Positions 3,266 to 43,155 of a DNA stretch of 43,322 nucleotides are shown piece after piece. The notes under the pieces are model-generated. The model had not been told where the DNA came from. It was given only the letters and a program-made list of their open reading frames with translations, and did not search any database. The translations under genes and the position numbers were made by a program. Within the stretch, counting starts at the first letter, position 1; every line of letters starts with the position of its first letter. Source of the DNA: a virus. The DNA lies in the IMG/VR virus record IMGVR_UViG_3300023242_000348, positions 1 through 43,322 of that record; one strand, given 5' to 3'.

Positions 3266-3700
3266 TTAATGAGAATACTTAAGTAAAGTGTGTTCTACTT
3301 TGTATCTAAACTTATCACATTCTTCTCTTATGTTTTTAGCAGTAGCCAAAAGACTAACTCTTGTGAGTAACTGCTGTATACCTATGGGCTTAGCTATATA
3401 ATCCGCAACACGTAAGTGGACTGAGCTAAGAACATCAGCTTTGTTTTCAGAGGCAGTCATAAATACAACCTCACTCTGAGAAGTGCTAGGGTTTTGTCTT
3501 AGTTGTTCACATAGCTTCAATCCACTTAGGTGTGGCATGTTTATAGCTAATAAGATAATAGTGGGATTAAATTCAATAGCGGCTTGTAACGCTAGTTGAC
3601 TATCAGAAACTATCTTGTATTCAATATCTGTGTGCGAGAGAGCCTCCCTAATAATAGCTAATTCAATCTCACTATCATCTACTACCAAAAGCTTTATCAT
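3266..3700 (-). CDS. CheY-like receiver domain lacking the phosphoacceptor Asp (pseudo-receiver)
   Basis: A stand-alone 144-residue response-regulator receiver. LLVVDDSE gives the acidic Mg-binding pair D8-D9, VVFMTAS gives the switch Thr T82, and YIAKPIG gives the invariant K104-P105. The phosphoacceptor position, in LLAINMPHLSG, is Ala52 (codon GCT on the coding strand) instead of Asp, so normal phosphotransfer cannot occur there. A helical extension of about 30 residues follows the domain; there is no output domain. Its ATG overlaps the stop of the membrane coiled-coil gene (3697-4011) as ATGA. It may act by binding a host histidine kinase, response regulator or the neighbouring membrane protein. 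Confidence 0.88.
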   Translation of the reverse strand: MIKLLVVDDSEIELAIIREALSHTDIEYKIVSDSQLALQAAIEFNPTIILLAINMPHLSGLKLCEQLRQNPSTSQSEVVFMTASENKADVLSSVHLRVADYIAKPIGIQQLLTRVSLLATAKNIREECDKFRYKVEHTLLKYSH

Positions 3701-12917: not shown

Positions 12918-15900
12918 TTATCCTCCTACAAATTCGTTTACTTTCAAAATACCATCTAGGATATTACCTAAGGTATCACCTGCTACATTACCTAATGCAG
13001 TATCATTTGCTAGGACTGCAGCATCTAACATTGATTTACGATTCTTATCATTCTCACTCATGGTGAAGTTGTTGTTAGCTTCATCACGCATCTCTTGCCA
13101 TAACAAGGCAGTACCATTAGTCTTAAGGTTAAAAGCAGATAGAACGTTAGCAGCATTGACAGCGTTTTGACCCGCTGTTTCCGCTGTATTAATATTGCGT
13201 CTCCATGTAACATTAGATTGCTCTATTATGGAAGCGTTCTTAGCGTTAAAAGCAGCCCTCTCATTTTCAGCAGCAACATTAAAACGGACCATTGCATTAG
13301 CTTCTTGAGAGTTACGCGCATTAATCATGTTCCTCTCAGATACTCTTGCTCGCTCCATTGCATTAACTTCTGCTACATTCTGTAAGGATACTTTATTTAA
13401 CTCTAGAGCACGTAATGCATCTCTCTTGTTTTCTTCTGAACTGTTAGCAGAGTTTATTATGTTCTCTTGATTAGCAACAAACTCCTGTCTTTGGTTACTC
13501 GCTTGTGAATTAAGAACTGAGATTCTATTTTGCTCACTAGCAGTAAACTCACCACGTCTATTACTTGCTTCTATGTTAGCTAAGTTTATAGAGTTCTCTT
13601 GTGTATTGTTATATTCGCCTCTTCTGTTGTTCTCGGTTATATTCTGAGATTCCATTCGGTTTAATTCAGAAGCACTAAACTCACCACGTCTATTAGTGGC
13701 TGCTGCATTAGCTAAGTTTATAGAGTTCTCTTGATTACTATTGAACTCTCCTCGCCTATTACTCTCAGTTATATTCTGAGATTCCATTCGGTTTAATTCA
13801 GAAGCAGTAAATTCACCTCGTCGGTTCATCGCTTCGGTATTAGCTAAGTTTATGGAGTTCTCTTGAGTAGTATTAAACTCACCACGTCTATTACTTTCAG
13901 TAACATTCTGAGCTTCCATTTGGTTTAACTCAGAGGAACTAAATTCTCCTCTTCTGTTTATTGCCGCTGTATTAGCTAAGTTTATGGAGTTCGCTTGATT
14001 ACTATTGAACTCTCCTCGTCTATTACTTTCAGTAACATTCTGAGCTTCCATTCGATTTAACTCAGAAGCATTGAACTCTCTTTGTCTATTTATTGCTGCT
14101 GTATTAGATAAACCTACAGTGTTCTGCTGATTAATATTAAATTCATCACGTTGATTCTGAGCAGCTAGATTCTGAGAAGTCATACGATTCTCTTCCCCTA
14201 CGGAGAACTCAGTGCGTCTGTTAGTAGCCGCTGTATTAGCTAATCCAATAGTATTCTGCTGATTAATATTAAATTCAGCGCGTTGGTTTCTAGCCGCTAC
14301 ATTCTGTGCTTCCATTCTATTTCTTTCTTGGGCAGCAAACTCATTTCTTGTATTAATAGACTGAGCGTTAAACTGTGATATAGCATCCCTACGAGAAGCA
14401 TTACTCATGTCAACCTGAGCTGATAAGTTAGACATGAATTGATTCTTCTGGTTTATAGAAGTAGCATTAAACTGTCTACCCGCGTAATCTTGAGCAACAT
14501 CAGATAACATAACCTGTACTCTAGTTTGGTATGTTGTCTTTCTACTATCTTGCTTAAGAGTAGCATTCTGTTGAGCCATAGGCATTGCACTTTGTATAAT
14601 AGCATTGAATAGAGAATCCCTTCCAACACTAGAGGCGCTGATACCTCTTCCAGCTAACATTTGTTCTACCTTAGTTACAGCGGGTCTTGCCCACATGGGT
14701 ACGTTACCTTTGTCCATACCCTCTAATAAATCATTCATCTCGTCTGTCATAGAGGCAGCATTGAAAGGGTCAATTTTCTCTAGTTCATCAAGACCTTTCG
14801 ATACTGATTCCATATCAATAAGAGATGCTTCAAAGTCTTTAACAAGAACATCACTAGCTGCCTTAGCTAACTCAATAGCTTCTATAGGAGTAACCTTTCC
14901 TTGTGCAGCTTCTTCCGCTATCTTAGCAAGGGTTTGTGCTGCTAGACCTGCAGCTTTCGTTGTCCCTTGCGCAGCATCCCCTGCTAAAGAAGCTATTGTC
15001 TGGGAAGCTTCTCTTAGTTGTTTAGCTTCTCCTCTTGCTATATCTCCCGCTAGTTGCGCTTGGGTAGTACTAGCGTTTCCTAGCGAATCAGCAGTACCTT
15101 GAGCTGCAGTACCCGCTAGTTGCGCTTGGGTAGTACTAGCGTTTCCTAGCGAATCAGCAGTACCTTGAGCTGCAGTACCCGCTAGTTGCGCTTGGGTAGT
15201 ACTAGCGTTTCCTAGAGCATCAGTAGTACCTTGAGCTGCAGTGCCTGCTGTAGCGGCATTAGCTTGAGCTGCCTTTCCTATATTTAGCGCATTAGCTTGA
15301 GCTGCAGAGACTACGCTAGCTGCTTTTGTATTTGTTGTTTCCCCTAGAGGAGCAGCGTTACTTATCTCCGCTTCTCTTGTTTTAGTATTAGAAGCGTCCT
15401 TAGCACTCCCTTGCTGTGTTTGACCAAGAAAACCAACAGTAGGGTCAATATCCCCAGCTTCTATTTCTTCCTTACTCATACTCTGGTATTCTTGCTTTAA
15501 CTTGTTATCCTCTAGGTACTGCCCAGGGCTATTCATTGACTCATCAACAAGTCTTCTAGCTTCAGCTTCTCTAGTTTCAGCAGCAGTAGGACCTAAGGGA
15601 GTCGGAGGTACTAAAGTACTAGGTTCTAAATCCGCTTCAGGTTCTCTTGAGACATCCTCTGTACCTGTGCTTACCCTTAATCTTCTTTTGTAATCATTCC
15701 CCATGTTCCCTTTAGTATTATAAATAGGAGGTTCATCGAGAACCTCAAGAGGCTGTCTATTAGGGTTACTGGAACTATTGTTAGGAGTAGCCCCTGTTGA
15801 AGCATAGAATCTATCGCTATCTCTATTTGTATTAGTTACGGGTTCTCTTCCGTTGTAATTACTTACAGGCTGCTGTATAATTCCTCCTTCTATAGTGTCC

Positions 15901-18149: not shown

Positions 18150-19795
18150 TAGACTTTACCTCCTCCTGTTAAATCTATTTGTAAACTCTGGATATCAAAG
18201 GGGAAATCATCTATCTCTCCTAATGATTTCATTCGGAAACTAACTACGAAGGCTGACCCCTCTGTGAAAACATCTCTATTTGGTATATCCGCAGAACCCC
18301 ATTTAATTAAAGTATCTCCCCATAGTGTTCGTGGGTCTCCCCAAATAAACGGAAGTGTCAAAGGTAACAAAGGATACAAAGTAGGTTGGTGTACATCAGA
18401 ACTCTCATAGTCATATCTCAGCTCTATACCTAGCTGTACATCACCTTCTGGTTTAGTCTGAACAAATACTTTATGTATATTCTTTCTAACGCTAATGTCA
18501 CCAAAGTCAGTAAAAGGAGATTGGTATACATAAGGTATCCTATCACCTCCAAAGGTATTACCTTGTTCTTGAACGCATATCTCCCCTGCTTGATTACCAT
18601 GTATTATTCTTTCTCTAGTATTCAAGTAAGTATTATCTACAGAGGTAACACCTAGTGCCTCTAGTTCGCTATAAGCCCAAGCAAACTGTCCTGTCCCCGA
18701 GTCAAAAGTGTAAGCAGCAATTATCCCTCGTTGCGAGGAATCTATGTTAGATAAATCGGTAAACCATAAACGGTATTGGTTCTTCTCTCGTATGATAGTA
18801 GAATTAAACTCAAAGTCCTGTCGGTTCCTTACTCTAGGGTCAATGAGTTTACTCACTTTCCTGCTGACCACCCCTAACTCTATATCATCTAAACGTTGAG
18901 TTTTAGCAATGTTCCTCAATCCATCAGGGGCTAAGAATAATAAATCACCTCCTATCTCTTGTATTGTGAAGCCATCAATGCAACCAATGTTTCGAGTTAA
19001 GTTAGTCACCACAGGATTCCCTGTCTCTGTGCCTTCTATCTTGTGTATACTATTTTCACAAAAGACATAAAGAGTCTCTCTGTGTACTTTAACGCCTGTT
19101 ACAATATCACCGACAGAAATAAAACCAGCAGTACTGCCATTGAAATTCTCTTGAGGTATTTCTTTATCATCATCTTCAGGACTGAGTAAATCAGTAGTAG
19201 CATGAGAGCTGTAAAAAATAGAGCTTTGGTCATTCAACATACCACCTAGTATTAATTGGTCTTTAAAGATAGTAACGTAACGAGCGCCAATTAAAGCAGT
19301 CCCTTCTATTATTTTTTTATATCTATAAAGGGGAGTAGTATCTTCATCTATAATACTAAATACAGCAGGATTATTTTTACCATCTACTAAAAATACATAT
19401 CTCTTGTTAGCTAGCAGGTGTGTCTCAAACATGTAGCGAGTTGCATCCGTCCTAGGTAACTCATTACCTGATGCCACAGAAGTAGCATTAACATTATCAG
19501 ATTCCCTATTAACTTGTACCCAGTTAGTATCATCAAGAGTATGATAAACCCCTGTTCCTCTACACGCTAACACTCCCTTGTAGTTAACAACGCCTAAGAC
19601 CCTTCCTATTTGAGGTAAGGAATCATTAAGGATAGTGTACCCTGAGATACGTCTGTAACCTCCTTGCTTACTACACTCAAAGTTAGTTAAACGGATAGCT
19701 TCATTAGGTTTCCCTAGTAACTCCTGTGTATTACTACTTAAGTTAAGACCTCCTCTACAAGGGAGTGTTAGTGTTTTCATCTGAGGACCAGCCAT
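18149..19795 (-). CDS. Tail tubular protein B-like / tail stabilisation protein (548 aa)
   Basis: Follows the tail tubular A-like gene with a TAATG overlap and precedes the fibre gene, the position of the nozzle gene (gp12-type) in T7-like phages. The N-terminus LPCRGGLNLSSNTQELLGKP and the following beta-rich segments (ECSKQGGYRRISGYTIL; RDVFTEGSAFVVSFRMKS near the end) fit this family of beta-propeller-like nozzle proteins. T7 gp12 is longer, about 790 residues, so this is a shorter form. Confidence 0.72.
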   Translation of the reverse strand: MAGPQMKTLTLPCRGGLNLSSNTQELLGKPNEAIRLTNFECSKQGGYRRISGYTILNDSLPQIGRVLGVVNYKGVLACRGTGVYHTLDDTNWVQVNRESDNVNATSVASGNELPRTDATRYMFETHLLANKRYVFLVDGKNNPAVFSIIDEDTTPLYRYKKIIEGTALIGARYVTIFKDQLILGGMLNDQSSIFYSSHATTDLLSPEDDDKEIPQENFNGSTAGFISVGDIVTGVKVHRETLYVFCENSIHKIEGTETGNPVVTNLTRNIGCIDGFTIQEIGGDLLFLAPDGLRNIAKTQRLDDIELGVVSRKVSKLIDPRVRNRQDFEFNSTIIREKNQYRLWFTDLSNIDSSQRGIIAAYTFDSGTGQFAWAYSELEALGVTSVDNTYLNTRERIIHGNQAGEICVQEQGNTFGGDRIPYVYQSPFTDFGDISVRKNIHKVFVQTKPEGDVQLGIELRYDYESSDVHQPTLYPLLPLTLPFIWGDPRTLWGDTLIKWGSADIPNRDVFTEGSAFVVSFRMKSLGEIDDFPFDIQSLQIDLTGGGKV

Positions 19796-20532
19796 TAGGT
19801 AGCCCTCATTCTTTCTTCTTTATTACTAAGAAGTATTCTTTTCATATTAGTTAAAGCATCCCTATATTCCCCTTTAGCCATATTAGCCTGCTCTAGGTTC
19901 TCCCTAAACTTCCAAAGGTAGTAAGCACATCTACTAACTAAAACATTTAGGTAAGCTTCAGGAAAAGGAATTTCAGTGTTAGGTTCTGTGAAACGTATGG
20001 CACTATTACTTACATTGTATTCTACCCAATAGTCTTTATCAGGAGAGGGAGACATTCCAAACTTACCAGAAGGGTACCTAATGACATAACTAGGAACGCC
20101 TGAGTTCTGCTTGTCAAAGTCTTTAGCTCTATAAGTAGACATCCACTCTTCATAAGTAATATATTGTAAAGACCTTGCTATCTTAGGAACACTAGCGATT
20201 ACTAAGGGGTCTACGCTTTGTAAATCTTTATCTGTAATCAAGAAAGTATCCCACTCTACCTCTACTTTATTACCAATAGTTAAAGGGTTTATTTCATACC
20301 ATACCTGCCCTTTGTTAACCTTAGTAACCTCAGTGTTAGCAGTGTTAGCTACTTGGTCTTGCAACCAAGGCCATTTTGTACTCTCATTACTAATATCAAA
20401 GAAAGACCTATTAACAGCTTCCTTAGCAAACTGTTGTAAACCACGGGAAGTAAGGAATAACTGTTGAGTAAGGGGAACTTCGTTTACTTCCCTTAACGCA
20501 AGATTAGTTATTTCTAAAAAGGTGTAAGCCAT
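19795..20532 (-). CDS. Tail tubular protein A-like adaptor (245 aa)
   Basis: Forms the ring joining portal to nozzle in short-tailed phages. The N-terminus TFLEITNLALREVNEVPLT, then AKEAVNRSFFDISNESTKWP, and the later YLNVLVSRCAYYLWKFRENL segment match the gp11-type adaptor pattern in sequence order and length. TATAACAGGAGAAAACATG provides the start. It lies just after a terminator that separates it from the coat gene, so its expression is probably lower than that of the coat. Confidence 0.82.
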   Translation of the reverse strand: MAYTFLEITNLALREVNEVPLTQQLFLTSRGLQQFAKEAVNRSFFDISNESTKWPWLQDQVANTANTEVTKVNKGQVWYEINPLTIGNKVEVEWDTFLITDKDLQSVDPLVIASVPKIARSLQYITYEEWMSTYRAKDFDKQNSGVPSYVIRYPSGKFGMSPSPDKDYWVEYNVSNSAIRFTEPNTEIPFPEAYLNVLVSRCAYYLWKFRENLEQANMAKGEYRDALTNMKRILLSNKEERMRAT

Positions 20533-20547
20533 GTTTTCTCCTGTTAT

Positions 20548-20581
20548 AAAAAAAGGGACCCGAAGTTTCCTTGGGTCCCTT
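20548..20581 (-). terminator. Rho-independent terminator after the major capsid gene
   Basis: On the minus strand AAGGGACCC pairs with GGGTCCCTT around an 11-base loop and is followed by seven T. It lies between the coat stop (20608) and the tail adaptor start (20532). With no obvious promoter after it, partial read-through must feed the tail genes. Confidence 0.9.
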
Positions 20582-20607
20582 AGGATTACTGTTTAAGTAA
20601 AACTATA

Positions 20608-21615
20608 TTATGCGTAGATTACGTAGGCAACCGCTAATGACTCAGGACGTATAATTGCACGACCGTATACATGGAGACCACGAACGATATCAGCAAAAGT
20701 AGTCTCAGAACGTAGCTTCTCAACCTTGTCTAAACAACTTACCGTAGCAACTGCTGACATGTGACCAGCGATTATTACGTCACCAGCTACACCATCATCA
20801 TTACCACCACCAATAGTAGTAGGACCATCTGCAGTATCAGGAGCAGCAGGAGTACTATCTGCGGTATACTTAGGTGAATTATTAGTCTTATACACCTTGA
20901 AACCACGTAGCATACCAGACATAGCTAGACCATTCTTTAGGCCACCTTCACCTTGGTTATAATCCGTAGATAACAACTTAGAATCAGTACGCGCCAGTAA
21001 TTCCATAAACTTAGGAGAAACTACAACATAACGACCTTCTTCTGGGACTTCTGCTTCATCTAGTTTTAAAGCTAGTAAAGACAATAGGTTCAACGGGTCA
21101 GTCTCATCGGCACCAAAGCCTAGAGTGATTGCGTTATCAGTATCCTGTGCAGTTGAATGTGTACCACCATTTACGATGTTACCTGCCTGAGCACCAGTAG
21201 CCATAAACTGTAGAACTTCTTTATCATAAGAGTTCTTTAGTGCATAGGTAGCTGAACCAGTAGCTAACGATTCCCAGTTTACATGAGAAAGTTTATCTTC
21301 AATATCATCTACTTTAAAAGCAAACTTATTGGCTTTGCTGATTTCGATAGTTACTTCATTATCAGCTAAGGCTTCATGGGCAACAGTAGCACCACGAGTG
21401 TAAGCACTGACAGTAATAATAGGTTCTAGGATAATTCGTACTGAATCACCGAAAGAAGCTAACTCACCGTAGTAGTCATTGTTAGTAATACCTTCGACAA
21501 CAGAAGAAGTTCGAAAGAACATAAGTACACGTTGTGAAAAGATTGTAGGGCTAAAAGCACCTGAGGGGCTAGTACCACCATAGTTAGTACTCGCTGAACC
21601 TGTAAAAGTTGACAT
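20608..21615 (-). CDS. Major capsid protein (335 aa)
   Basis: Length and position directly after the scaffold gene match the T7-type HK97-fold coat (T7 gp10A is about 345 residues). Family-like segments include the N-terminal SGAFSPTIFSQRVLMFFRTS, the DSVRIILEPIITVSAYTRGA strand region, EVPEEGRYVVVSPKFMELLA, and a C-terminal strand ending RPESLAVAYVIYA. The start has an AAGGTAAATAAAC ribosome site. Codon use looks like that of a high-expression gene (many GTA, GCA, ACT). The following terminator would raise coat mRNA relative to tail mRNA. Confidence 0.93.
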   Translation of the reverse strand: MSTFTGSASTNYGGTSPSGAFSPTIFSQRVLMFFRTSSVVEGITNNDYYGELASFGDSVRIILEPIITVSAYTRGATVAHEALADNEVTIEISKANKFAFKVDDIEDKLSHVNWESLATGSATYALKNSYDKEVLQFMATGAQAGNIVNGGTHSTAQDTDNAITLGFGADETDPLNLLSLLALKLDEAEVPEEGRYVVVSPKFMELLARTDSKLLSTDYNQGEGGLKNGLAMSGMLRGFKVYKTNNSPKYTADSTPAAPDTADGPTTIGGGNDDGVAGDVIIAGHMSAVATVSCLDKVEKLRSETTFADIVRGLHVYGRAIIRPESLAVAYVIYA

Positions 21616-22479: not shown

Positions 22480-22564
22480 AAATTATCTCCTGTCTAGGTC
22501 TTTGTACATAGGTGTCCGAGGAGCTTTGTATGAAGAGTACTAGGATTGTATATTATATGAGAGG

Positions 22565-23368: not shown

Positions 23369-25498
23369 TTAAACCCCTTCCACGTTTCCTGCACCTGCAG
23401 TATTAGCTGTAGCCCCTGATGTACCTGTGGGACCCTCGGCCCCTTCAGTAGGCTGTTGTGCCGTGTTAGCTTGTTTAGATTGAGGAGTAGCACCGCCAGC
23501 CATTCCTATGATTTCAGCGTATAGCTTAGCTTCTGACATATCATTAATCACAGCGTCAGGGTCCATATCCATACCCTTGACTAACTCACGTATAATGTAA
23601 GGTAACTTAACCATAGGAGCTAATGCAGGATTCTGTAATAGACCTAGTAGTGTCTGTAGTCTTTGTACTTTTACTTCTTGTTTTGTGTAGCTTCGGATAC
23701 CTGTAGCTATAACATCAAAGTCACCCTCAGGTAAGTTCTCGTAATTAAACTGGTTGTTCCAATAGAATAACATGCGACCCATAGGCTGTAGTAAATCATC
23801 ATCGAGGTTACGGATTACTGTCTTTATATTTAGACTAGCATTTTCTAGAATCATGTTTAAACCTGAGGAAGTACGACCAACACCAGAAACTCCTGTTTGA
23901 CCATGAGATACACTGGGTATCCCTGTGGCTTCATCAGCTTGCCTACGGAACTCTTGGAACATCTGTAAGTTCTCATTAGCAGTAGAAGGAAACTTAACTC
24001 CATGAACTGCAGCACCGGGTTGGCCTCCTTGTCTACGGAATATCTTTCCAGGATAAATGCTCATGTCTTGTCCAGGAACCAACATAGTTTCATCTACATC
24101 GAATATCATATTACCTGCCAAAGCTAGGTTATCAATAGCTAAACGAGCAAAACCGTTCATCATGCTTTGAGAATCTTGCATGGCTTCAGGTACACCAGTA
24201 CCGTAGATGTTGTAAGGGTCAATCTCGTAGTTAAATAGAAAGTAAGGTAAACGCTGAGGTAAGAAAGGATTAGTAATAATACGTAGTATATCTTCTCCAC
24301 ATACCCAACAGTTAACTTGGATTTGGTCAGTAGTAGCTTCATCCACAGGTAACCCTGCAGTCTCTGCTTCGTCGACACTCATGTAACCCCAGTACTCAAA
24401 GACTTCCCAGAGTTTACCTTTGTCCATAATAGCATCTTCTTCTCTGACTACATGTTCAAAACTCTTGTTACTATAATTAGCACCTGCCTCTATACAACGG
24501 TCAATAACATCTACTCTAAAGTTCTTTCGAGCCTTTAGGTCTCTCATTTGTTTAGCTGTCATACGATGTCTTTCTATAGCCCATTCTGCATCATCAATGA
24601 CCATAGCATTAGGGTCTAGGTATACATCCCATATAGAAACAGAACGTACTTTAGGTACCTTACGAGTTTCTGGTGTGTATACACCTTTGACCCATTTGTG
24701 CATTGTTTTTGTTTCAGAGAATACGCCTTTCATCATACCAGAACCTAACAGACATGCCTCGAACACAGCTTTTCTTAATTCTGTGTGTGCATTGGATTCT
24801 TCTAGTTGGTCTAATATTACTTTGTTCATCTTCTCAGCAGCCCTATCAGCAGGACGGACCTCAGCGTATTGACCTCCAGACCTATCAGGACCCTCATTTA
24901 CATTTTCGTATAAGGTATCATCTTCTTTCCACGAGAGTTTATCAGAGGTGGCCCCGGGAGCGAGTGTCTTACCATCTCCTTTATACCCTATACCAAAGTC
25001 TTCTTGGGACTCAGGCCCACTAGGTTTATTCTTTAGAGAAGGGTCATTACTTGCTACTTCAGGAACGCCTTCAGGTGTAGGAGTAGGTTCAATCATTAGA
25101 GGGAAACGAGAGTTCTGCATCAGAGATTCCATAATCTGAGAGAACGCTGCTTTAGTTTTTACAGTGGTAGTTCTTACGTATGTCTTAGATATCTCACTAT
25201 CTCGATTAAGACCAGAGTCACCGTTTGAACTAGCCATATTTGAATCTTTAGCGCGGTAAGCAAGTAGGTTCTTTATCCATTGGCTTTCGGAAGCAAGGCG
25301 TGAAGTCTCAGCAGAACTAAAGTCAGCTTTGATACGAGACAATAGAGGAGCTAATTTTATACGTTCTTCCATTTCAGCATCTAATGCCATCTCATCCATA
25401 TTCAAAGGAATAGGTTCTACCTCTACTTCTTCTACAGCTTCTTCTTTCTTAGCTGATGGTTTCTTAATTAATGAACTAGGTTTTTGTTTATCAGGCAC
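23369..25498 (-). CDS. Portal (head-to-tail connector) protein (709 aa)
   Basis: The dodecameric DNA entry ring. The GTG start at 25498 (VPDKQKPSSLIKK, read as fMet) is chosen because AAGGAGGACATT lies directly upstream, whereas the ATG 42 bases earlier has no ribosome site. Portal-like features are the order between terminase and scaffold, the helix KTKAAFSQIMESLMQNSRFP, the SIWDVYLDPNAMVIDDAEWA segment, the TGVPEAMQDSQSMMNGFARL stem helix and a Gly/Ala/Gln-rich tail. It is about 170 residues longer than T7 gp8. Confidence 0.88.
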   Translation of the reverse strand: MPDKQKPSSLIKKPSAKKEEAVEEVEVEPIPLNMDEMALDAEMEERIKLAPLLSRIKADFSSAETSRLASESQWIKNLLAYRAKDSNMASSNGDSGLNRDSEISKTYVRTTTVKTKAAFSQIMESLMQNSRFPLMIEPTPTPEGVPEVASNDPSLKNKPSGPESQEDFGIGYKGDGKTLAPGATSDKLSWKEDDTLYENVNEGPDRSGGQYAEVRPADRAAEKMNKVILDQLEESNAHTELRKAVFEACLLGSGMMKGVFSETKTMHKWVKGVYTPETRKVPKVRSVSIWDVYLDPNAMVIDDAEWAIERHRMTAKQMRDLKARKNFRVDVIDRCIEAGANYSNKSFEHVVREEDAIMDKGKLWEVFEYWGYMSVDEAETAGLPVDEATTDQIQVNCWVCGEDILRIITNPFLPQRLPYFLFNYEIDPYNIYGTGVPEAMQDSQSMMNGFARLAIDNLALAGNMIFDVDETMLVPGQDMSIYPGKIFRRQGGQPGAAVHGVKFPSTANENLQMFQEFRRQADEATGIPSVSHGQTGVSGVGRTSSGLNMILENASLNIKTVIRNLDDDLLQPMGRMLFYWNNQFNYENLPEGDFDVIATGIRSYTKQEVKVQRLQTLLGLLQNPALAPMVKLPYIIRELVKGMDMDPDAVINDMSEAKLYAEIIGMAGGATPQSKQANTAQQPTEGAEGPTGTSGATANTAGAGNVEGV

Positions 25499-25553
25499 AA
25501 TGTCCTCCTTGTTGTAATAGAAAATAAAGTAAGGATGCATTGCACATCAAGGG

Positions 25554-25611: not shown

Positions 25612-27642
25612 CTATTGAAAATAACTGCGGTACTGGTCAAAGGAACTAGAAGCGGTCTTATGTTGCATAGCTCTCTCTTGTATACTTACGTGAGAGGGTC
25701 TAGACATACATAGGTATCTTAAGCAATCTAATAAGTCCCAATGATGAACTCTTCCATGTGATTTAATGCGTTTATCATCTATATCATCTGGTTTCTTTTC
25801 GTTTATCTTGGCACTCTGTATTTGTTCAATGAGCCGCTTACATGATGAATGAACGAGTAGCCCTACAGCGCCCGACTCAGGTGTCCGGTACAGTCGTTGG
25901 TGTATTTGGTTCCAACCAGCTTCTCTGTTTCTATCTGCAGGACGAGGGCTAATATGTAACTTAGCAAGCTTCTCGCGTACACCGGGTCCTGTGTGTCCTG
26001 TGTTATTGAATACAGTATGGTCTATTACTCTATCTATGCCTTGAGGTATGTATCCTTCCTTCTCTTTAATATGAGCACCCCATGCTTCATGATGTAAACC
26101 TACTTGCTCATCTTCCATATAAACTATAATTTGATTAGTATGAGGGTCGACTGCTGCCCATAAAGAAGCTGCAGGGTCCCTATAACCATAGTCTAATGCG
26201 TTAGATACAGCCCAGTGTTCAGGAGGCATTGTATCTGTAATATGTAAATCAGGAACAAAGGTAAACATTGAGTCTTCACCTACTGTCCAGTCCCCTTCTA
26301 GTAGTTGCTTACGTTGAACCTCAGGCATAGCCATAAGCATTCGTCGGTAAGGACTCATAGACTCTCCTTCCTTAGGAGTATCTAGGTGAGGGTTGTCTGC
26401 TAAGCTGGCAGGTATGAACTTATAACTTAGTCCATCCTTGTAAAAAGTAGTGTTAGGTTCAGCAGGGTCTATAAAACGTTGCTTAACCCAAGGAGCACCA
26501 CCTGGGTTAGCAGAGGCTCTTATGTAACAATGGATATTAGGATTAGCACTACGGAGTCTAGAAAGTAAGTAAACAAAACCTGCGTCACTTCGCTGATGTT
26601 GTATCTCATCGAAACCAATGTAAGCATAGGGTATACCTTGGTAGTTTTCTAAGTCTTCAGGTCTATCTAGGTACCCAAATTGTATAGTAGCTCCTGATGG
26701 GAAGTACCATACGTTCTCACTCTTGTTATACTTTGCACCTGGGAACGCTTTTGCATAGAGTATACGAGAGACACCTATTAATTCTTTAAGCATAGGAGAG
26801 GTTCTTCGTATAATTAAGGCTCTATAGTCCTCAAACATACAGTAACGTAGGGCATCTATTAGCATAGCGTAGGATTTACCCCCACCAGCGGCTCCTCCGT
26901 AGAGTACTATGTCTTCTCCTGCACTATGAAACTCTTCTTGCTTAGGAGTTGGCTGGTATAGAATCTTTTTGTTCTGTTTAGTGGCAGCTTCTACTGCTTC
27001 TGCTATCTTACCTCTCTTTATTTCCTTCTTTTCCCTAGTTTCTAGGACTTCTTTGTTAGTCATACCCCTTTTAGCTGCAATTCTACCTACTTTCTGAAGT
27101 ACCAACTGCTTTTCTTTCTCTAATCTAGCTAATCTATCTCTAGTATCCTTTAAATCTCTGGCAGCTTCGAACTGTTTCTTTTTCTTTTCGGTGTAAGGAG
27201 TTATCCTTTGTTTACCTAGTGCCTTTGCTTTCTCTCTTGTCTTATCTGCGGATACCTGAAGCGACCTTCTCTTGTCTTTTAGTCCTAGTCTAGTCTCTAT
27301 TCGGTCCCATATGTTACCAAGTTGTCCTTGAGAAGACACAGAGTACCCTAGTGACTCTAGTTTTTCCCTTGCTTCTCGTATGGTGTAGGCTTTCTTATAT
27401 CTAACTGTTAGCATTATCTGTATGTAGGGAACATAAACCGAAGGCTCAGATATGTAGAATCCCTTGGTATCAGTTACAACGTGACCCAAGGGTGCTTTGA
27501 CAGAACGTACAGGCTCAAACAAGAGGGTATTTACCAAAGCATCTAGATTATTACTGTTCGTGTATAGTGTAGTAAGTAGTTTCTCATTAGGATACCCTAG
27601 TACCTCCTTACCATATTGTTCTAGTATCTCTAAAAAGGTCAT
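25612..27642 (-). CDS. Terminase large subunit (676 aa) with a long N-terminal extension
   Basis: The ATP-driven DNA packaging motor. The ATPase core starts near residue 230: Walker A GGAAGGGKS at 249-257, Walker B YIGFDEIQ at 341-348, coupling motif SANPGG at 377-382. The nuclease part has LDYGYRDP (D484) and the late HHWDLLDCLRYLC element. Residues 1-228, unlike typical T7-type enzymes, form an extra region: a small folded part, a possible helix-turn-helix (YTIREAREKLESLGYSVSSQ), then a long charged coiled coil (130-215). AGGAG precedes the start at 11-12 bases. Confidence 0.93.
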   Translation of the reverse strand: MTFLEILEQYGKEVLGYPNEKLLTTLYTNSNNLDALVNTLLFEPVRSVKAPLGHVVTDTKGFYISEPSVYVPYIQIMLTVRYKKAYTIREAREKLESLGYSVSSQGQLGNIWDRIETRLGLKDKRRSLQVSADKTREKAKALGKQRITPYTEKKKKQFEAARDLKDTRDRLARLEKEKQLVLQKVGRIAAKRGMTNKEVLETREKKEIKRGKIAEAVEAATKQNKKILYQPTPKQEEFHSAGEDIVLYGGAAGGGKSYAMLIDALRYCMFEDYRALIIRRTSPMLKELIGVSRILYAKAFPGAKYNKSENVWYFPSGATIQFGYLDRPEDLENYQGIPYAYIGFDEIQHQRSDAGFVYLLSRLRSANPNIHCYIRASANPGGAPWVKQRFIDPAEPNTTFYKDGLSYKFIPASLADNPHLDTPKEGESMSPYRRMLMAMPEVQRKQLLEGDWTVGEDSMFTFVPDLHITDTMPPEHWAVSNALDYGYRDPAASLWAAVDPHTNQIIVYMEDEQVGLHHEAWGAHIKEKEGYIPQGIDRVIDHTVFNNTGHTGPGVREKLAKLHISPRPADRNREAGWNQIHQRLYRTPESGAVGLLVHSSCKRLIEQIQSAKINEKKPDDIDDKRIKSHGRVHHWDLLDCLRYLCMSRPSHVSIQERAMQHKTASSSFDQYRSYFQ

Positions 27643-27703: not shown

Positions 27704-28102
27704 CTACTCGGTGTCTTTTATGTCCGTCTCGTCTTGCTCTGTAGGCACAACAGCTTTAGCAGGTAGTATGAATAAACCATTCTCACTTTCTACTTGCACT
27801 TCCACTGATGTATGGCGTGTGATTCCTACTCTATCCATTACTTGTTCTGCAGCTTTCATACGTAGCTCTCCTTTTTCTGTATTTGCATTTGCGTCCAATA
27901 GTTCTACTACGGTATTAGCAGCTTTCACTGCAGCGAAGGTTAATCTATCTCGTGCTCTCTCTAATACTTCATCCTTAAGTTTATCTTTGTACTTGCGAAT
28001 ACTAGAGTAAGAGATACCCATAGCCTCCGCGATTTGTTGCATGGTTAATCCTTTCTCAACATGAGTTAAGAAGATGTAATCTAGTTCTGATAGGTTAGAC
28101 AT
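27704..28102 (-). CDS. Terminase small subunit (132 aa)
   Basis: Recognises phage DNA for packaging. An N-terminal helix-turn-helix (TMQQIAEAMGISYSSIRKYK, residues 20-39) is followed by a helical oligomerisation region (KAANTVVELLDANANTEKGE, then LRMKAAEQVMDRVGITRHTS), an order typical of small terminases. The tail is acidic. It lies directly upstream of the large subunit. A terminator (28146-28180) separates it from the sigma gene, so it needs its own promoter or read-through. Confidence 0.85.
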   Translation of the reverse strand: MSNLSELDYIFLTHVEKGLTMQQIAEAMGISYSSIRKYKDKLKDEVLERARDRLTFAAVKAANTVVELLDANANTEKGELRMKAAEQVMDRVGITRHTSVEVQVESENGLFILPAKAVVPTEQDETDIKDTE

Positions 28103-28145: not shown

Positions 28146-28180
28146 AAAAATAAACCGTCAGTACCAGAGGCAAGACGGTT
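28146..28180 (-). terminator. Rho-independent terminator after the sigma gene
   Basis: On the minus strand AACCGTC pairs with GACGGTT around a 14-base loop, and TATTTTTG follows. It begins 18 bases after the sigma-factor stop and lies before the small terminase, so the sigma gene can be a separate transcript. Confidence 0.8.
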
Positions 28181-28197: not shown

Positions 28198-28776
28198 TTA
28201 GTCTTTCTTAAGTATCTCTTCTACTCTATCTTTGAGAAGCCTTACCTGTCGTTCCAAGGTTCTGACTGAAACATCCAATTGTTTAGCTACATCAGCATAA
28301 AGGTTATGTTGTAGAAGTATTAGGTAAAGCTCTAACTCTTTCTCTTCTAGGTTGTTCAGTACATATTCCTCTAGTTCACTAATGTAATCATAGGAATCCC
28401 CTATTAATAAACTCTCTAGTGTTCCTTTGTTTGGGTCGCTAGGGTCATTGAAAGCTGTTACATCTTCTATCTCAGCTATCATAGGGTTCTCAACAGTAGT
28501 CAACTTACGTTTCTTATATAGTAAATCAATGAAGACACAACGGGCTGCTGTGTAGATATAAGAACGTGTTAGGTACATAGGATTAGCTCTGACTACCTTC
28601 TCTACTGTATCCATAACTAAATCTTCAATGGTGTAGTGGGTACCAAAGTGTCTACGTAGTACATGATTCTGAGAGCCATTGATTAACTTCTCGAAAGCCT
28701 TAGTAGCTATCTTGATGATATCCTTAGTCTCTACGGTACTTACTCTCTTATTTAGGGGATGTATAGAAGGGGTCAT
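28198..28776 (-). CDS. Phage-encoded RNA polymerase sigma factor (192 aa)
   Basis: Resembles small sigma70-family (ECF-like) factors. Region 2 spans about residues 25-91: HYTIEDLVMDTVEKVVRANP, then the RSYIYTAARCVFIDLLYKKR helix with the typical I-L-rich motif and basic end that contacts the -10 element. Region 4 spans 133-188, with helix-turn-helix ADVAKQLDVSVRTLERQVRL. An acidic linker lies between. It would redirect host RNA polymerase to phage promoters, most likely those of the minus-strand virion and lysis-like genes (inference). It is the first gene left of the control region; AGGAGACTACCT precedes the start. No single-subunit phage RNA polymerase is visible. Confidence 0.85.
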   Translation of the reverse strand: MTPSIHPLNKRVSTVETKDIIKIATKAFEKLINGSQNHVLRRHFGTHYTIEDLVMDTVEKVVRANPMYLTRSYIYTAARCVFIDLLYKKRKLTTVENPMIAEIEDVTAFNDPSDPNKGTLESLLIGDSYDYISELEEYVLNNLEEKELELYLILLQHNLYADVAKQLDVSVRTLERQVRLLKDRVEEILKKD

Positions 28777-28853
28777 AGGTAGTCTCCTTTGGGTATTGGA
28801 TGTGTATAGGTATACGTACTAGTGTATACTATTGTTTACATTTGTCAATACTT

Positions 28854-28870
28854 AAGTAACCTAAGGTATA
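28854..28870 (-). promoter_or_regulatory. Copy of the TACCTWRGGTTACTT motif upstream of the sigma gene
   Basis: The minus strand reads TATACCTTAGGTTACTT about 80 bases before the sigma start, matching the plus-strand site at 34937-34953 in 16 of 17 bases. TTGACA follows 6 bases downstream on the same strand (28843-28848), with TATAC-type sequences after it. Confidence 0.5.
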
Positions 28871-28951
28871 TACTCTATAGCAGGTATTAGAGACATAGGT
28901 GTAACTAATGTTGTAGCAGATTGTTCTTTTAGATTACCTAGAGTAACTTAT

Positions 28952-29096
28952 GTACCTACTCTTAGTTATTAACAAGTAGAGTACTTAAGTAACCCTAGGT
29001 ACTTACTCTTAGTTAATTACTAGTAGAGTACCTAAGTATTAACTTAAGTACTTACTGATTGTAATTAACGAGGAGAGTACCTGAGTTTTACTTTAG
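28952..29096. repeat. Three imperfect tandem repeats (47-49 bp)
   Basis: Units begin at 28952, 28999 and 29048 with GTACYTACT, continue with TAGTTATTAAC-like sequence and end with AGAGTACYTRAGT. The junction of units two and three forms an inverted repeat: AGTACCTAAGT (29027-29037), spacer ATTA, ACTTAAGTACT (29042-29052), with 10 of 11 positions complementary. Likely a binding array for a phage protein. Confidence 0.8.
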
Positions 29097-29712
29097 TTTA
29101 CCTTTGTTTTTCTCTTGTTTACTTATGTTACTAATGTAACGAAGAATAACATGGATTTCGACATCTGACTACCCTATTTGCGACGAATGACATACAAAGG
29201 CGACGAAGCGGACTTTTAGAGGGAGATGATAGGGTGCTTGGGTTGGAACTGTTCGAGCATTTGTGTCGCATGTAACTCCATGTACCCCTTAGTGCTCTAT
29301 GTATAACCCTAGTTATCCCTTGTGGTACCCTAGCATCTACTTTTTATAATTTCAAATAGAGGGGTACCTTGGTTTACATAGGGAGACATGGGAGACATGA
29401 GTTTACATAGGGAATCCCTAGTTTACATGTGGTAACCTAAATCTTGTTTTCTACCTGCTACACGCTATAATAATATTTGAACCCCCCAGTGTCCCTTCGT
29501 AAATCCACGAAACCCACTGTAAACAATAGTTTCCACCTCCACAGCCCGGGGAATACGTGGCCTCTAGTGATAGTACCTACTAACTACTGTACATCCCTAC
29601 AGTAATACGTACGTTTACCATACGATTAGGTATACACCTGTATATATGGTTGTAATCACACTTGTATATACACTTGTAACTACTGTATACACTGGGGACA
29701 CTGTATATCCTT

Positions 29713-29812
29713 AGTAACCATGTGGTTAATATTGTTACCCATGTAAACAATTGTATAGCCCTAGTAATCATAAGGTTAATATTGTTACCCATGTATACCC
29801 TTGTTACTATGG
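29713..29812. repeat. Two 50-bp direct repeats
   Basis: A 22-base core beginning GGTTAATATTGTTACCCATG is perfectly repeated at 29724-29745 and 29774-29795, inside a less conserved 50-base unit. Each unit also holds AGTAAYCAT at its left edge. Confidence 0.85.
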
Positions 29813-30484
29813 TTATAACTATAGATTCAATTGTTCTAGTCAAATGGTTGACAATTGTTGACATAGGGCGCGGGGCTCCGCCATTCCTTGTCCCTTGTAA
29901 ACAAATGTATACACCCTATAATTACCACTGTTAACACTGGTATATCACACCGTTATACTAATACCCTCCCCATTCATACAATTGATACTACTGTATTAAC
30001 TACTGTATAGGCCCTTGTTCCCTACTGTTTTACACTAGCACCTACTTTTAGAGTACTTTTCTACCCTTGTTTACTCCGGTATTGCATAGGTATTCACTAT
30101 TTTATGCAGGTTATGGTCTACAGGCCGCATTCTATGGTTTAGCTATTTGCATATTATTCACTATTTCTAAAAGTTGTGTCCAATTCTATGGGCCTATACA
30201 GCTCACTACAGCGTTTTAACGTTTTCTTGAACACTGGTATACCTATTGATTGCATATACTCGCCACGTTGATTACAGCATTTTTCGACTTTCTGGGATTT
30301 CAGCTAATTTCTATAAAATATTAAATATTTCTTTACTTATGTAAACTATTGTGCAACACGTGCGTGCGGTTCTTCTATAGTACACTTGGGTTACCTTTCG
30401 TATATCCCTTGTTTACATAGGCTTATTATTAATAGGTGCATTAGTATTATAGGTAACCTATTTATATTTAATTGTGATTAGTAC

Positions 30485-30513
30485 TTGACGGCATACCCTA
30501 ATTTTAGTACTGT
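30485..30513 (+). promoter_or_regulatory. Possible sigma70 promoter for the first early gene
   Basis: TTGACG at 30485-30490 and TACTGT at 30508-30513 are separated by 17 bases, about 80 bases before the first early start codon. The -10 box is a weak match. Confidence 0.4.
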
Positions 30514-30593
30514 TTTACCAACGGACAAAAACACGATAAATTAACTCTAAACAAGAATCATTCTCAACTAGATAACAATAGGATAACATTACA

Positions 30594-36230: not shown

Positions 36231-38366
36231 ATGAAAATGTCACACTTAGATTCAACCCCCGCAGAAACATCAGGCTTCACTTCATCAGGATTTGGTTTCG
36301 AGATGAACGCCAAGATGTATAGTATCTTCCTTGATAAGATGTACAAGGATAAAGCAGGCGCAGTGATTAGAGAATTATCTGCTAACGCATGGGACTCCCA
36401 CGTAGACGCAGGTAACACTCTAACACCTTTTGAAATACAGCTACCCACTTGGTTAGATAAAACGTTTAGTATCCGTGACTATGGTACAGGGATTCCTCAT
36501 GATAGCTTTGAGCATGTCTATACCAACATAGGTAACAGTACTAAAGAACACTCCAATGATTTCATAGGTAGTTATGGTCTTGGTTCTAAGTCACCTTTCT
36601 CTTTAACAGATACCTTCATAGTAGATAATATACACGATGGTATCAAGAGTGTCTGGGTATGCTTCAAGAGTGCAGGGTTTCCCCAAGTAACAAAGGTATC
36701 CTCGGAGCCTACTGATGAACACACAGGTGTTAAGGTTTCTTTCTCTCTCGAGAAGTGTATGGAGAGAGACTTTAGACAATCCGTTGTACGTCAGTTGAGA
36801 TTCTACACTCTAAAGCCTATTGTCACAGGGGCTGACTTACCTATTGTGTTCCCAGAGATGCCCAACTTAGAAAATGGGTATGCTTACGACGGAGAAATAA
36901 GAGAGAACCTATTGGTCATGGGTAATGTTAACTATCCTATAGACTTAGATAGCTTAGGTGCATACGACAAAGGAGGTAAATACTTAGATGCCTTAGGTGC
37001 ATACGACAAAGGAGGTAAATACTTAGATATCTTCCGTACTAACATAATACTTAAAGCAGAGTTAGGTGATGTAGATATTCCACCTTCTCGTGAATCATTG
37101 GAATACACAGAAAAGACTAAAGAGTGGGTATATGCTAAAATAGATAGAATCATAGAGGAACACAAAGCTAATTTTATATTATCCTTAAGTGAGTGTACTA
37201 CAGTAGTAGAAGCAAGTATCTTAACGAGTAAAAGTAACTCTAGGTTACTAGATTTTACACAGGATAGGGTTTTTGAAATAGGAGGATTTCCTATTAAGTG
37301 GACTGCTCTAGTAGCTGGTAGGGTTTCTTTCCTTCCTTTACATAGTAAGAAGTATTTTACACCTAGTAGAGCAAACAAGTTTCCTGAGCACAACCAAGAG
37401 TTTATACAGGTAGAACACTTACAGCAGACTCTAATACTTATTAACGATTACACTAATAATCAAGTGCCTTTCTTTAAAGAACACATAGAGGATACTATCC
37501 TTCCTTACTTTAGGAACTCAATCCCTTACAGTAAAATGATAATACTAAAGGCTCAGACTACTTACGATAAGCTAACCTTGGAAGAGGACACAGTATTACT
37601 TAAAGACAGGTTACTTAAAGAATACAATGTAAAGGCTGTTACGTTCACGGAAGTACTAGGTATCCCTCCTATTAAACTTAAGACCACTAAGCAGTATAGT
37701 AACTCCGAGCCTAATCAAGTGTTCACTATTAATAACTATGATGCTTTTGAGACACGACAGAAAGAACAGTTTACTGAGTATAAAGAGAAAGACCTCCCTA
37801 CCGAAGGTTATTACATAGAGTTATCTAACTGGAGTTCTCTTCCAAATCAGTTATCTATAGCTTGGATAGCTAACCTTGTTTCCCTTACAAACACTACGAT
37901 ATACGCTGTTCGCAGTAAAACAGTAAAGAAACTACCCTCTACCTTAAAACCTCTAGTCAAAGGTCTTACTACTTTCAACAAAGCCATAAAGAAACACCTA
38001 CAGAACTCTCGTGACTATGATGCAATGGGTACTCAGGTGGTAAGGCGTATTCCTCTCTATGCTTTCACTCTCTTAGCCGAAGGAGACAAACATACAAAAC
38101 CTTTACTTTCATACATTAAGAAGTACTCAGAGATGTATGTACTTACTTCTTGTAACAATAATATACTAAGGGCTATATTAAGGAAACAGGAGCCAACGTG
38201 GGAAGAAGCACCATTAGTAATACCTACTAAGGTAGTTGCTTCCTTATCCCATTACAATATAAACTACAGGAAACTAATTGACACTCTAACTTATAATGTT
38301 GTTACACTAAGAGATATCAATAGCAACATCGCAACCATCCGCAAACTATCTAACTTCATCAAATAA
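36231..38366 (+). CDS. rIIA: rIIA-like protein with GHKL-type ATPase domain (711 aa)
   Basis: The N-terminal 130 residues carry the Bergerat ATP-binding motifs: VIRELSANAWDSHVDAGN (E48, N52), IRDYGTGI (D83, G85, G87) and IGSYGLGSKSPF (G113-G118). This with the large helical remainder and the neighbouring rIIB-like gene identifies the rIIA family. In T4, rIIA and rIIB act at the membrane and decide exclusion by lambda Rex and lysis inhibition; the biochemical role is not settled. A 39-bp in-frame tandem duplication (36953-37030) repeats LGAYDKGGKYLDA around residues 241-266. AAAGGATAACAAAG precedes the start. Confidence 0.88.
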   Translation: MKMSHLDSTPAETSGFTSSGFGFEMNAKMYSIFLDKMYKDKAGAVIRELSANAWDSHVDAGNTLTPFEIQLPTWLDKTFSIRDYGTGIPHDSFEHVYTNIGNSTKEHSNDFIGSYGLGSKSPFSLTDTFIVDNIHDGIKSVWVCFKSAGFPQVTKVSSEPTDEHTGVKVSFSLEKCMERDFRQSVVRQLRFYTLKPIVTGADLPIVFPEMPNLENGYAYDGEIRENLLVMGNVNYPIDLDSLGAYDKGGKYLDALGAYDKGGKYLDIFRTNIILKAELGDVDIPPSRESLEYTEKTKEWVYAKIDRIIEEHKANFILSLSECTTVVEASILTSKSNSRLLDFTQDRVFEIGGFPIKWTALVAGRVSFLPLHSKKYFTPSRANKFPEHNQEFIQVEHLQQTLILINDYTNNQVPFFKEHIEDTILPYFRNSIPYSKMIILKAQTTYDKLTLEEDTVLLKDRLLKEYNVKAVTFTEVLGIPPIKLKTTKQYSNSEPNQVFTINNYDAFETRQKEQFTEYKEKDLPTEGYYIELSNWSSLPNQLSIAWIANLVSLTNTTIYAVRSKTVKKLPSTLKPLVKGLTTFNKAIKKHLQNSRDYDAMGTQVVRRIPLYAFTLLAEGDKHTKPLLSYIKKYSEMYVLTSCNNNILRAILRKQEPTWEEAPLVIPTKVVASLSHYNINYRKLIDTLTYNVVTLRDINSNIATIRKLSNFIK
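36953..37030. repeat. 39-bp in-frame tandem duplication inside rIIA
   Basis: Two copies starting at 36953 and 36992, identical at 37 of 39 bases. They add 13 residues between the ATPase core and the following strand region. Confidence 0.92.
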
Positions 38367-38377
38367 AGGAAAACAAA

Positions 38378-39400
38378 ATGTTTATATTCACAGGTAATAC
38401 AATAAACTTTCATTACAACGGTAAGTTCCACACAGCACAGAAAGACCATCCTAAGTTCCATCAGATAAAAGCAGCAGCTATGGAGAAAGACTATGGTCTT
38501 GCGGAGTCATTAATAGACAATGAGAAAACAATCCTTAACTTAGTCATAGGTACCGACCTAAGTTTCATCAACAGTGTTCTATACTATAAAGGAGACGTAG
38601 TACATGGGGTACTAGGGGAGAGAATCCTGGATATGGTGGATGGAGGGTATGATGCTAGTCCTCTAATACTATTCATGGAGAACTTACTTAACAACCCTAG
38701 TAAACGTGCGGTAGATGAGTTGTATGGTTTCATGGAGGTCTCAGGACTCCCTATAACAGTTGATGGTCACTTCCTAGCATACAAGTCAGTACGTAATGAC
38801 TTCACTGATAAACACTCAGGTACCTTTGATAATAGTGTAGGCTCTACTTGTGAGATGATAAGAAACAAAGTAGATGAAAACAAAGATAGAACCTGTGCAC
38901 AAGGGTTACATTTTGCTGCCCATGAGTACGCTAAGGGTTTCGGTGGTGGTGATGATATCATGGTAGTACTCAAGATTAACCCTCGTGATGTTGTTGCTAT
39001 ACCTAGTGATTACAATAACCAGAAAGGGAGATGTTGTAAGTATACAGTGGTTTCTCAGGTAGCTAGGGAAGACGGTAGCTTAACAGGTAAGTCCTTTGTT
39101 GGTAGCAAGAGTACATATGTCCCTCCTGTTAGTAACTATGCAGACTCAGCTATATGGGGTGATTTGTTTGACACGTTTAACTCTGACAAGAAAACTGACT
39201 TCCCTATAGATAGAGACATGGAATATGAGTTACGCAGAGAGTCCACAGGTAAGGTATATTCTAGATTTGTGTTCTCTCACTATGATGAAAAGAATGATAA
39301 CCTTATTTTTAAATCACTAAAGACTGACCCCAAGTATTGCACTGTTAAAGACTTAGAAGATTGGACTATAGAGTATACAGGTCGCTTAGTAGGACAGTAA
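38378..39400 (+). CDS. rIIB: rIIB-like protein (340 aa)
   Basis: Twelve bases after rIIA, with AAAGGAAAACAAA before ATG. Family features: N-terminal small region followed by the conserved FMEVSGLPITVDGHFLAYKS block, VRNDFTDKHSGTFDNSVGST, and CAQGLHFAAHEYAKGF with DVVAIPSDYNNQKGRCCKYT. These match phage rIIB proteins. It works with rIIA, probably in a membrane-associated complex. A terminator follows (39419-39447), so rIIA and rIIB form the end of one transcription unit. Confidence 0.88.
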   Translation: MFIFTGNTINFHYNGKFHTAQKDHPKFHQIKAAAMEKDYGLAESLIDNEKTILNLVIGTDLSFINSVLYYKGDVVHGVLGERILDMVDGGYDASPLILFMENLLNNPSKRAVDELYGFMEVSGLPITVDGHFLAYKSVRNDFTDKHSGTFDNSVGSTCEMIRNKVDENKDRTCAQGLHFAAHEYAKGFGGGDDIMVVLKINPRDVVAIPSDYNNQKGRCCKYTVVSQVAREDGSLTGKSFVGSKSTYVPPVSNYADSAIWGDLFDTFNSDKKTDFPIDRDMEYELRRESTGKVYSRFVFSHYDEKNDNLIFKSLKTDPKYCTVKDLEDWTIEYTGRLVGQ

Positions 39401-42129: not shown

Positions 42130-43155
42130 ATGAAACTAGCAATAATAATAGGCAACTTCCAACCTTTACACAATGGTCATGTTACCCTTATAAACAAAGC
42201 AGTAGAAGATAATGATAGAGTCTTGATTCTAATAGCAGGTATCAACAAGTTACCTAATTACGTTAGACCTTTTAGTTTTCAAGATAGAAAGGTTCTTATG
42301 GAGAAAGTAATCCAGAGTAATAAGTTAGATATCCGAGGGTTACCTGACTCCCCTACTAAAGAAGAGTGGGTATCTAATGTTATAGCCCATCAATGTAGTA
42401 TCGAAGAAGACCCTACCCATGTAACTCTATACACGAGTGAGAAAGAGAGAGACTTTTACTCTGAGGCACTATTGTATACCGTGGAAACAGTAGATGAACT
42501 ACCTATAAACTCAGTTGACATAAGAAACTTGTTTTACGCTGCATCCTCTGATTTAAAAATACTTTCTTCGCTAGTACCCAAGGATACATTATCTTTCCTA
42601 GGTGACATAGAAGTAGGGGAGTTGTGGAGATTATCACAAGAGAAAACAAAGTGTGAAGAGTTATCCTTAAGTAAGAGACAAGAACATTCACATAACAATT
42701 CCATAGAACCTGTAGCACACGCTATTATAGTTCAGAACCAGAAAGTATTAACAGTAATACGTAAGTCTGTTAGAGGGTATGGACAAAGAGCATTAGTAGG
42801 AGGTTACATAGATTACAAAGAAGAATCTATGGGCGCTGCCATGCGAGAAGCACTAGAAGAAACAGGGGTAGACTTGATAGACTTAAGTAAACAAGGAAAA
42901 TGCAAGTGCCTTGTTAGGTCCATAGAAGAAAACCTTAGTGATATAGGCTCCCGCACACTTGGTATTAATTACCTGTTCATTATCAAAGAAGACTTAGAGT
43001 TAAAAATAGTACCTTGTCCTAAAGAAACACTAGGTTATGAGTGGGTAGTCTTAGACGATATACTTAGGGAGAAAGAGCTATTGTTCTTTAATCATAACTT
43101 AGTAGTACAGAGGGTGTACAGTATGTTAAGCTCTAATGCGACAACAAAAAAGTAA
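42130..43155 (+). CDS. Bifunctional NMN adenylyltransferase / Nudix hydrolase (341 aa)
   Basis: Makes NAD from nicotinamide mononucleotide and ATP. The N-terminal domain has GNFQPLHNGH (8-17) with the HxGH nucleotidyl-transfer motif and INSVDIR (126-132), the ISSTxxR-like motif. The C-terminal Nudix domain has a complete GX5EX7REUXEEXGU box: G225, E231, R239, E240, E243, E244, G246; it probably cleaves ADP-ribose or a related product. The same architecture occurs in NadM-Nudix enzymes and the phage NatV type (KVP40). In a phage it can refill host NAD, including NAD removed by defence systems. AGGAGATACCA gives the start. Confidence 0.9.
   Translation: MKLAIIIGNFQPLHNGHVTLINKAVEDNDRVLILIAGINKLPNYVRPFSFQDRKVLMEKVIQSNKLDIRGLPDSPTKEEWVSNVIAHQCSIEEDPTHVTLYTSEKERDFYSEALLYTVETVDELPINSVDIRNLFYAASSDLKILSSLVPKDTLSFLGDIEVGELWRLSQEKTKCEELSLSKRQEHSHNNSIEPVAHAIIVQNQKVLTVIRKSVRGYGQRALVGGYIDYKEESMGAAMREALEETGVDLIDLSKQGKCKCLVRSIEENLSDIGSRTLGINYLFIIKEDLELKIVPCPKETLGYEWVVLDDILREKELLFFNHNLVVQRVYSMLSSNATTKK

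Follow-up and report, generated by a model that had tools for sequence, protein, structure and literature searches.

A putative ECF-type sigma factor beside the terminase genes of a podovirus lineage and its alternation with a T7-like RNA polymerase among relatives

In podoviruses lacking an RNA polymerase of their own, control of the late genes often remains unexplained, and a conserved gene next to terS, hitherto without annotation, offers a probable explanation for one such lineage, the relatives of phages CHOED and Slicky01. The stretch of DNA under study (hereafter the window) is a 43,322-base IMG/VR fragment and not a whole genome. A first-pass annotation had read one of its minus-strand genes as a sigma factor of a podovirus with T7-like virion genes, with recognizable regions 2 and 4, with its own terminator, nearest to the control region and expected to be switched on before the virion genes, no single-subunit polymerase having been seen. 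The features that bear on this reading are collected in Table 1.

Table 1. Features of the sigma factor locus and of the virion and packaging genes in the window
Feature	Position	Strand	Remarks
ECF-type sigma factor gene (predicted)	28198..28776	(-)	192 aa, ATG start
Domains of the window sigma protein (predicted)	residues ~17-96; ~91-118; ~120-191		sigma2; low-confidence linker; sigma4
Promoter of host sigma70 type, 5' of the sigma gene	28821..28848	(-)	TTGACA, 16 bp, TACACT; predicted
Hairpin and U-run, likely intrinsic terminator	28146..28180	(-)	right after the sigma stop codon
Terminase small subunit (terS)	27704..28102	(-)	directly follows the sigma gene, in the window as in relatives
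Terminase large subunit (terL)	25612..27642	(-)	Pfam, PHROG
Portal protein, SU10-like	23369..25540	(-)	PF23899, 89.6 bits
Candidate late promoter region, 5' of the scaffold gene	22480..22564	(-)	conserved non-coding block, CTAGNACTC-like word in relatives; weak
Major capsid protein	20608..21615	(-)	PHROG 267
SU10-type adaptor / tail protein	19795..20532	(-)	PF24175, 47.2 bits
Non-coding control region, ~1.8 kb	28777..30593		repeated TTGTTTACATA-like words

The window protein is matched over residues 22-191 by PHROG 1740, 'RNA polymerase sigma factor' (E 7.7e-9), and over residues 38-187 by the sigma70-ECF profile TIGR02937 (35.5 bits, E 7.4e-9), the latter below the curated cut-off of 42.9 bits, which is an NCBI naming threshold and stands for no biological trait. 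Pfam Sigma70_r2 matches it weakly (E 0.015), and a Pfam region 4 was not found in it. The window protein taken alone stays below the curated cut-offs, whereas its family is clearly recognizable: among the 18 aligned positional orthologues, the window included, TIGR02937 matches 17 and Sigma70_r4_2 matches nine (E 0.01 or better; best 2.6e-9 for the latter), and the L017 orthologue, with 55.0 bits, exceeds the TIGR02937 cut-off. The stretch EDLxMDxxEKV in region 2, the part at which sigma factors touch the core polymerase, belongs to the best-conserved part of the family alignment. ECF-type sigma factors are defined by the presence of sigma2 and sigma4 only, joined by a flexible linker, with neither sigma1.1 nor sigma3, a layout that fits the 192 aa, the two helical domains and the low-confidence linker of the window protein. 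Plain tblastn with the window protein against 50,697 records gave no phage match, the same search with the L003 orthologue gave weak matches only (best E 0.4), and a genome-contig scan using a closer alignment found no cellular relative. Weak TIGR02937 matches in MQM1 and RHph_N3_19 lie inside annotated HNH endonuclease genes and were not counted as sigma factors.

The AlphaFold2 model of the window protein (pLDDT 74.2, pTM 0.43) likewise shows a pair of helical domains and, between them, a linker of low confidence. Judged by their titles, the 50 PDB matches listed by Foldseek are all sigma factors; SigE, SigL and E. coli sigmaE rank high among them, and one match only has an E < 0.001. VIA-align of the whole protein to SigL gave Z 9.7 over 142 residues with an rmsd of 20.6, a large value that is expected if the two domains differ in orientation, and sigma4 alone aligned to SigL sigma4 (3hug_C) with Z 9.3 over 72 residues and an rmsd of 3.7; the tool warns that an arrangement with Z < ~13 may be common among helical bundles. 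Among viral structures, too, the matches are mostly to sigma factors of phages, including the ECF-type sigmas named for Salinivibrio phage CW02 and Cronobacter phage GAP52, at low identity (14-18%). Taken together, profile comparison and predicted fold bear out the sigma assignment and indicate that the reading frame is real and that its product is a two-domain sigma2 and sigma4 protein of the ECF type.

The minus-strand virion cluster starts with the sigma gene, which is also the closest gene to the control region, as had been claimed for it, and this region separates the sigma and virion genes from the early genes on the plus strand. The gap to terS is 95 bp in the window. Over 18 loci compared, whose terminases are 56-68% identical, a sigma homologue lies directly upstream of terS in all 16 related contigs that contain terS, the remaining two ending before it. 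By terminase and portal, the closest cultured phages are Pseudoalteromonas phage vB_PtuP_Slicky01 (Slicky01), Vibrio phage CHOED and Aeromonas phages 1233 and MQM1, followed by Pelagibacter and HMO-2011-type phages. In Pfam, the best matches of the portal and the adaptor are SU10 families, so the T7-like label given to the virion genes is not supported. The helix-turn-helix of TerS (27959-28075, minus strand), adjoining the sigma gene, matches region 4 of TIGR02937 with 19.5 bits, and an Rfam scan returned 0 matches.

We next consider how the sigma gene itself may be expressed. An exact TTGACA, searched from -160 to +45 of the start codon, precedes the sigma gene in 15/15 window-clade loci including the window (L018, with too little upstream sequence, being left out), ~16-18 bp upstream of a -10-like hexamer and against a chance rate of 0.04-0.065 per gene. 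By the same test, TTGACA precedes only one of 99 virion or packaging genes (terS 0/22, terL 0/22, portal 0/20, scaffold 0/13, capsid 1/12, adaptor 0/10). Outside the window clade it is present in three of eight loci (L076, L077 and the poorly spaced L090), and an exact copy was not found in L017, Slicky01 (TTGACT instead), L080, L081 and L082. In the orthologues L005:8920 and L014:119 the longest-ORF starts overlap the TTGACA promoter, so that the true starts probably lie further downstream.

At the other end of the gene, the hairpin following the stop codon folds with -12.7 kcal/mol in the window (z -2.5; 3/200 shuffles fold as well), and its counterpart at the same place in G002 is stronger (-19.3 kcal/mol, z -4.4); although it is not listed by a generic terminator scan, it agrees with the terminator that the first-pass annotation had assigned to the gene. 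Sigma gene and terS overlap in G003 and are ~10 bases apart in G005 and G006, which leaves no room for a terminator. On sequence grounds, the host-type promoter and the hairpin support an early expression of the sigma gene by the host polymerase, in keeping with a regulator that is on before the virion genes, and the latter would, read-through aside, be without an evident host promoter.

The search for a late promoter used intergenic-enriched 9-mers, sense/antisense 6-mers, spaced dyads and pairwise words; no recurring motif emerged from the 25 late intergenic segments that were taken from six genomes, nor from the pairwise words. The pairwise words gave no motif above shuffles in the window and its close relatives, a null that carries no information because the same method missed the published phiEco32 motif; according to the phage 7-11 paper, such promoter motifs escape standard searches (PMC4331800). 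The block preceding the scaffold gene was considered as a promoter (CTAGAACTC) and appears weak, occurring in one copy per genome and being partly kept in polymerase-bearing phages. Separately, the CHOED genome (L038) carries a dispersed near-palindrome, CAAATCCGACASTGTCNGATTTG, with 31 strand hits, mostly both strands of one site (e.g. 12447, 40806, 45243), and similar sites precede the scaffold gene in L083, L084 and L087; CHOED_083 is annotated as a StrR-like regulator.

The distribution of the sigma gene and of a phage polymerase was compared over whole records. In the first 19 of these, the sigma profile matched seven (the window, five close contigs and Slicky01) and the T7-like polymerase family PF00940 matched three (CHOED, MQM1 and 1233); in 50 further contigs the respective numbers were three and one, and both genes occurred together in 0/69 records. 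The sensitivity of the sigma profile is incomplete, as inspection of the ORFs preceding terS, together with a TIGR02937 scan, added G013, G014, G015 and G021. Among the lineage records of at least 30 kb, nine have the sigma gene without PF00940 (the window, G002, G004, G005, G006, G009, G010, G021 and Slicky01), four have PF00940 without the sigma gene (CHOED, MQM1, 1233 and G019), and none has both or neither. The multisubunit polymerase beta family PF00562 was found in 0/19 records, with 14/14 control genomes positive.

The Slicky01 sigma gene (OQ508958, 57956-58465; L029:6782-7291), annotated as a hypothetical protein, was also matched by a profile built without Slicky01 (E 1.9e-10), a row of that phage having been part of the original profile. 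As in the window, it lies directly upstream of terS in a genome in which a phage polymerase was not found; it differs in being only 18% identical and in having the TTGACT promoter noted above. CHOED, MQM1 and 1233 belong to the same lineage, with homologous terminase, portal and capsid and the same two-strand layout, but they carry a T7-like polymerase on the early strand and a sigma gene was not found in them.

Regarding the completeness of these records, G002 and G004 (63 kb) have 127-bp identical ends and are thus complete, Slicky01, CHOED, MQM1 and 1233 are complete-genome records, and G009, G010 and G021 have no identical ends. The earlier statement that a single-subunit polymerase, as known from T7-like (Autographivirus-type) phages, is missing can be extended from the window to relatives: PF00940 was not found in the 43-kb window, and the same holds for the complete genomes G002 and G004, for Slicky01 and for the contigs G009 and G010 (64-66 kb); pieces of the CHOED polymerase have no relative in G002 and G004. 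The G002 stretch that matches the missing part of the window encodes NrdB, ThyX, an exonuclease, a ligase, a DNA polymerase, a primase-helicase and NAMPT, and no RNA polymerase. In the window, an NMN adenylyltransferase/Nudix gene lies at 42130-43155 (plus strand), and its G002 homologue neighbours a nicotinamide phosphoribosyltransferase gene (L065:6997-8355, minus strand); the two are possibly an NAD salvage pair directed against NAD-depleting defence.

In a tree built from 48 TerL rows, the sigma and polymerase labels need three changes, the minimum possible, so that the mutual exclusion rests on few events and not on many independent ones. The polymerase phages form one well-supported clade (together with two fragments without sigma gene), the sigma phages form two clades, and the outgroup consists of HMO-2011-type phages in which the searches used found neither gene, which implies that the wider lineage can live without both. 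The position beside terS in two of three clades suggests that the sigma gene is ancestral there and gave way to the polymerase in the CHOED clade, a reading limited by the unresolved base of the tree and by the weak mutual similarity of the two sigma clades. We lean towards a scenario in which one lineage exchanged its whole transcription switch, with a sigma factor in two clades, a T7-like polymerase in the third and the virion and packaging genes they would drive otherwise kept. The alternation within one lineage is the part that we regard as new: it was not found in print among open-licence papers, to the extent of their available text, and the accessible portions of the papers on HMO-2011-type phages (PMC9038755), MQM1 (PMC10410586) and Slicky (PMC10507051) mention neither an RNA polymerase nor a phage sigma factor.

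The use of a sigma factor by a podovirus is itself known. SU10 and phiEco32 are podoviruses without own polymerase; their ECF sigma factor is preceded by a promoter of the host type and drives late genes from promoters with tAATGTAt (PMC4281155). In one database, 86.6% of phage genomes are without sigma factors (PMC9429907), so that a phage carrying one is not rare. The strategy being established by phiEco32 and SU10, the window sigma represents a sequence-distant member. It resembles phiEco32 gp36 and SU10 CDS32 (Kuravirus) in being an ECF-type sigma with its own host-consensus promoter in a podovirus in which no own polymerase was found; virion and functional genes lie on opposite strands (PMC4281155, PMC4331800), and portal and adaptor of the window are of the SU10 type. 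It differs in that the family matches gp36 marginally, in region 4 only (12.8 bits), in its location beside terS, the phiEco32 sigma lying in the functional-gene cluster, and in that a late promoter motif was not found in the window lineage, with a method that missed the phiEco32 motif too.

According to these results, we consider it likely that the phage sigma is made via host sigma70, redirects the host polymerase to the virion and packaging genes and thereby replaces the role of a T7-like polymerase. In this model, the host sigma70 holoenzyme would transcribe the sigma gene early from the consensus-type promoter ~70 bp upstream, as its sequence indicates; the phage sigma would, we infer, bind the host core polymerase, and the sigma-bound enzyme would transcribe the virion and packaging cluster, which is without host-type -35 boxes, from promoters specific to the phage. 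What the T7-like single-subunit polymerase does in the sister clade (CHOED, MQM1 and Aeromonas 1233) would here be done by the sigma factor.

With the sigma gene at the head of the virion cluster, the virion genes could also be transcribed by read-through from its promoter, and a true sigma factor might then serve other genes, middle or host. The same-strand arrangement at 95 bp from terS, the overlap or ~10-base gap in G003, G005 and G006 with no room for a terminator, the late promoter motif not found and the HMO-2011-type phages, in which virion genes are expressed and no sigma gene or polymerase was detected, would all be compatible with this, but the terminator-like hairpin directly 3' of the gene in the window and G002, an alternation with the T7-like polymerase that suggests the same job, and the phiEco32/SU10 precedent make it unlikely in our estimate. 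A degenerate sigma-like DNA-binding protein, acting as a repressor or as a packaging partner of terS after loss of core binding, is in turn quite improbable: the conservation of EDLxMDxxEKV, the sigma matches in 17/18 members and the lack of such a gene next to terS in polymerase-bearing phages with homologous terminase argue against it, even though the gene adjoins terS in all relatives reaching there, region 2 is weak in the window protein and the helix-turn-helix of TerS resembles sigma region 4. That the sigma factor is merely accessory to a T7-like polymerase encoded in the unseen part of the window phage we hold to be extremely improbable; the window is a fragment and CHOED, MQM1 and 1233 carry such an enzyme, but none was found in the complete genomes G002 and G004 or in Slicky01, G009 and G010, and the missing part corresponds to replication and NAD genes in G002.

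The sister clade with the T7-like enzyme allows the two takeover strategies to be compared like for like on homologous virion genes, and cultured phages are available on both sides (Slicky01 versus CHOED, MQM1 and 1233). The switch exchange, if true, would amount to a natural swap experiment in which the two strategies are interchangeable modules.

Further features of the window were also noted. A terminator-like hairpin lies 3' of the major capsid gene (20535-20605, minus strand; -22.4 kcal/mol for the stretch), with a similar element in relatives. Tandem repeats of 132, 21 and 9 bp (13444-14336, 10906-11136 and 8868-8939, respectively) fall within large putative tail/virion proteins. Tandem rIIA-like and rIIB-like genes are present at 36231-39400 (plus strand), here in a podovirus. 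Finally, near the end of the virion cluster, a gene at 3266-3700 (minus strand) encodes a stand-alone receiver-domain response regulator of 144 aa (PF00072, 74 bits; PHROG 731), which is unusual for a phage.
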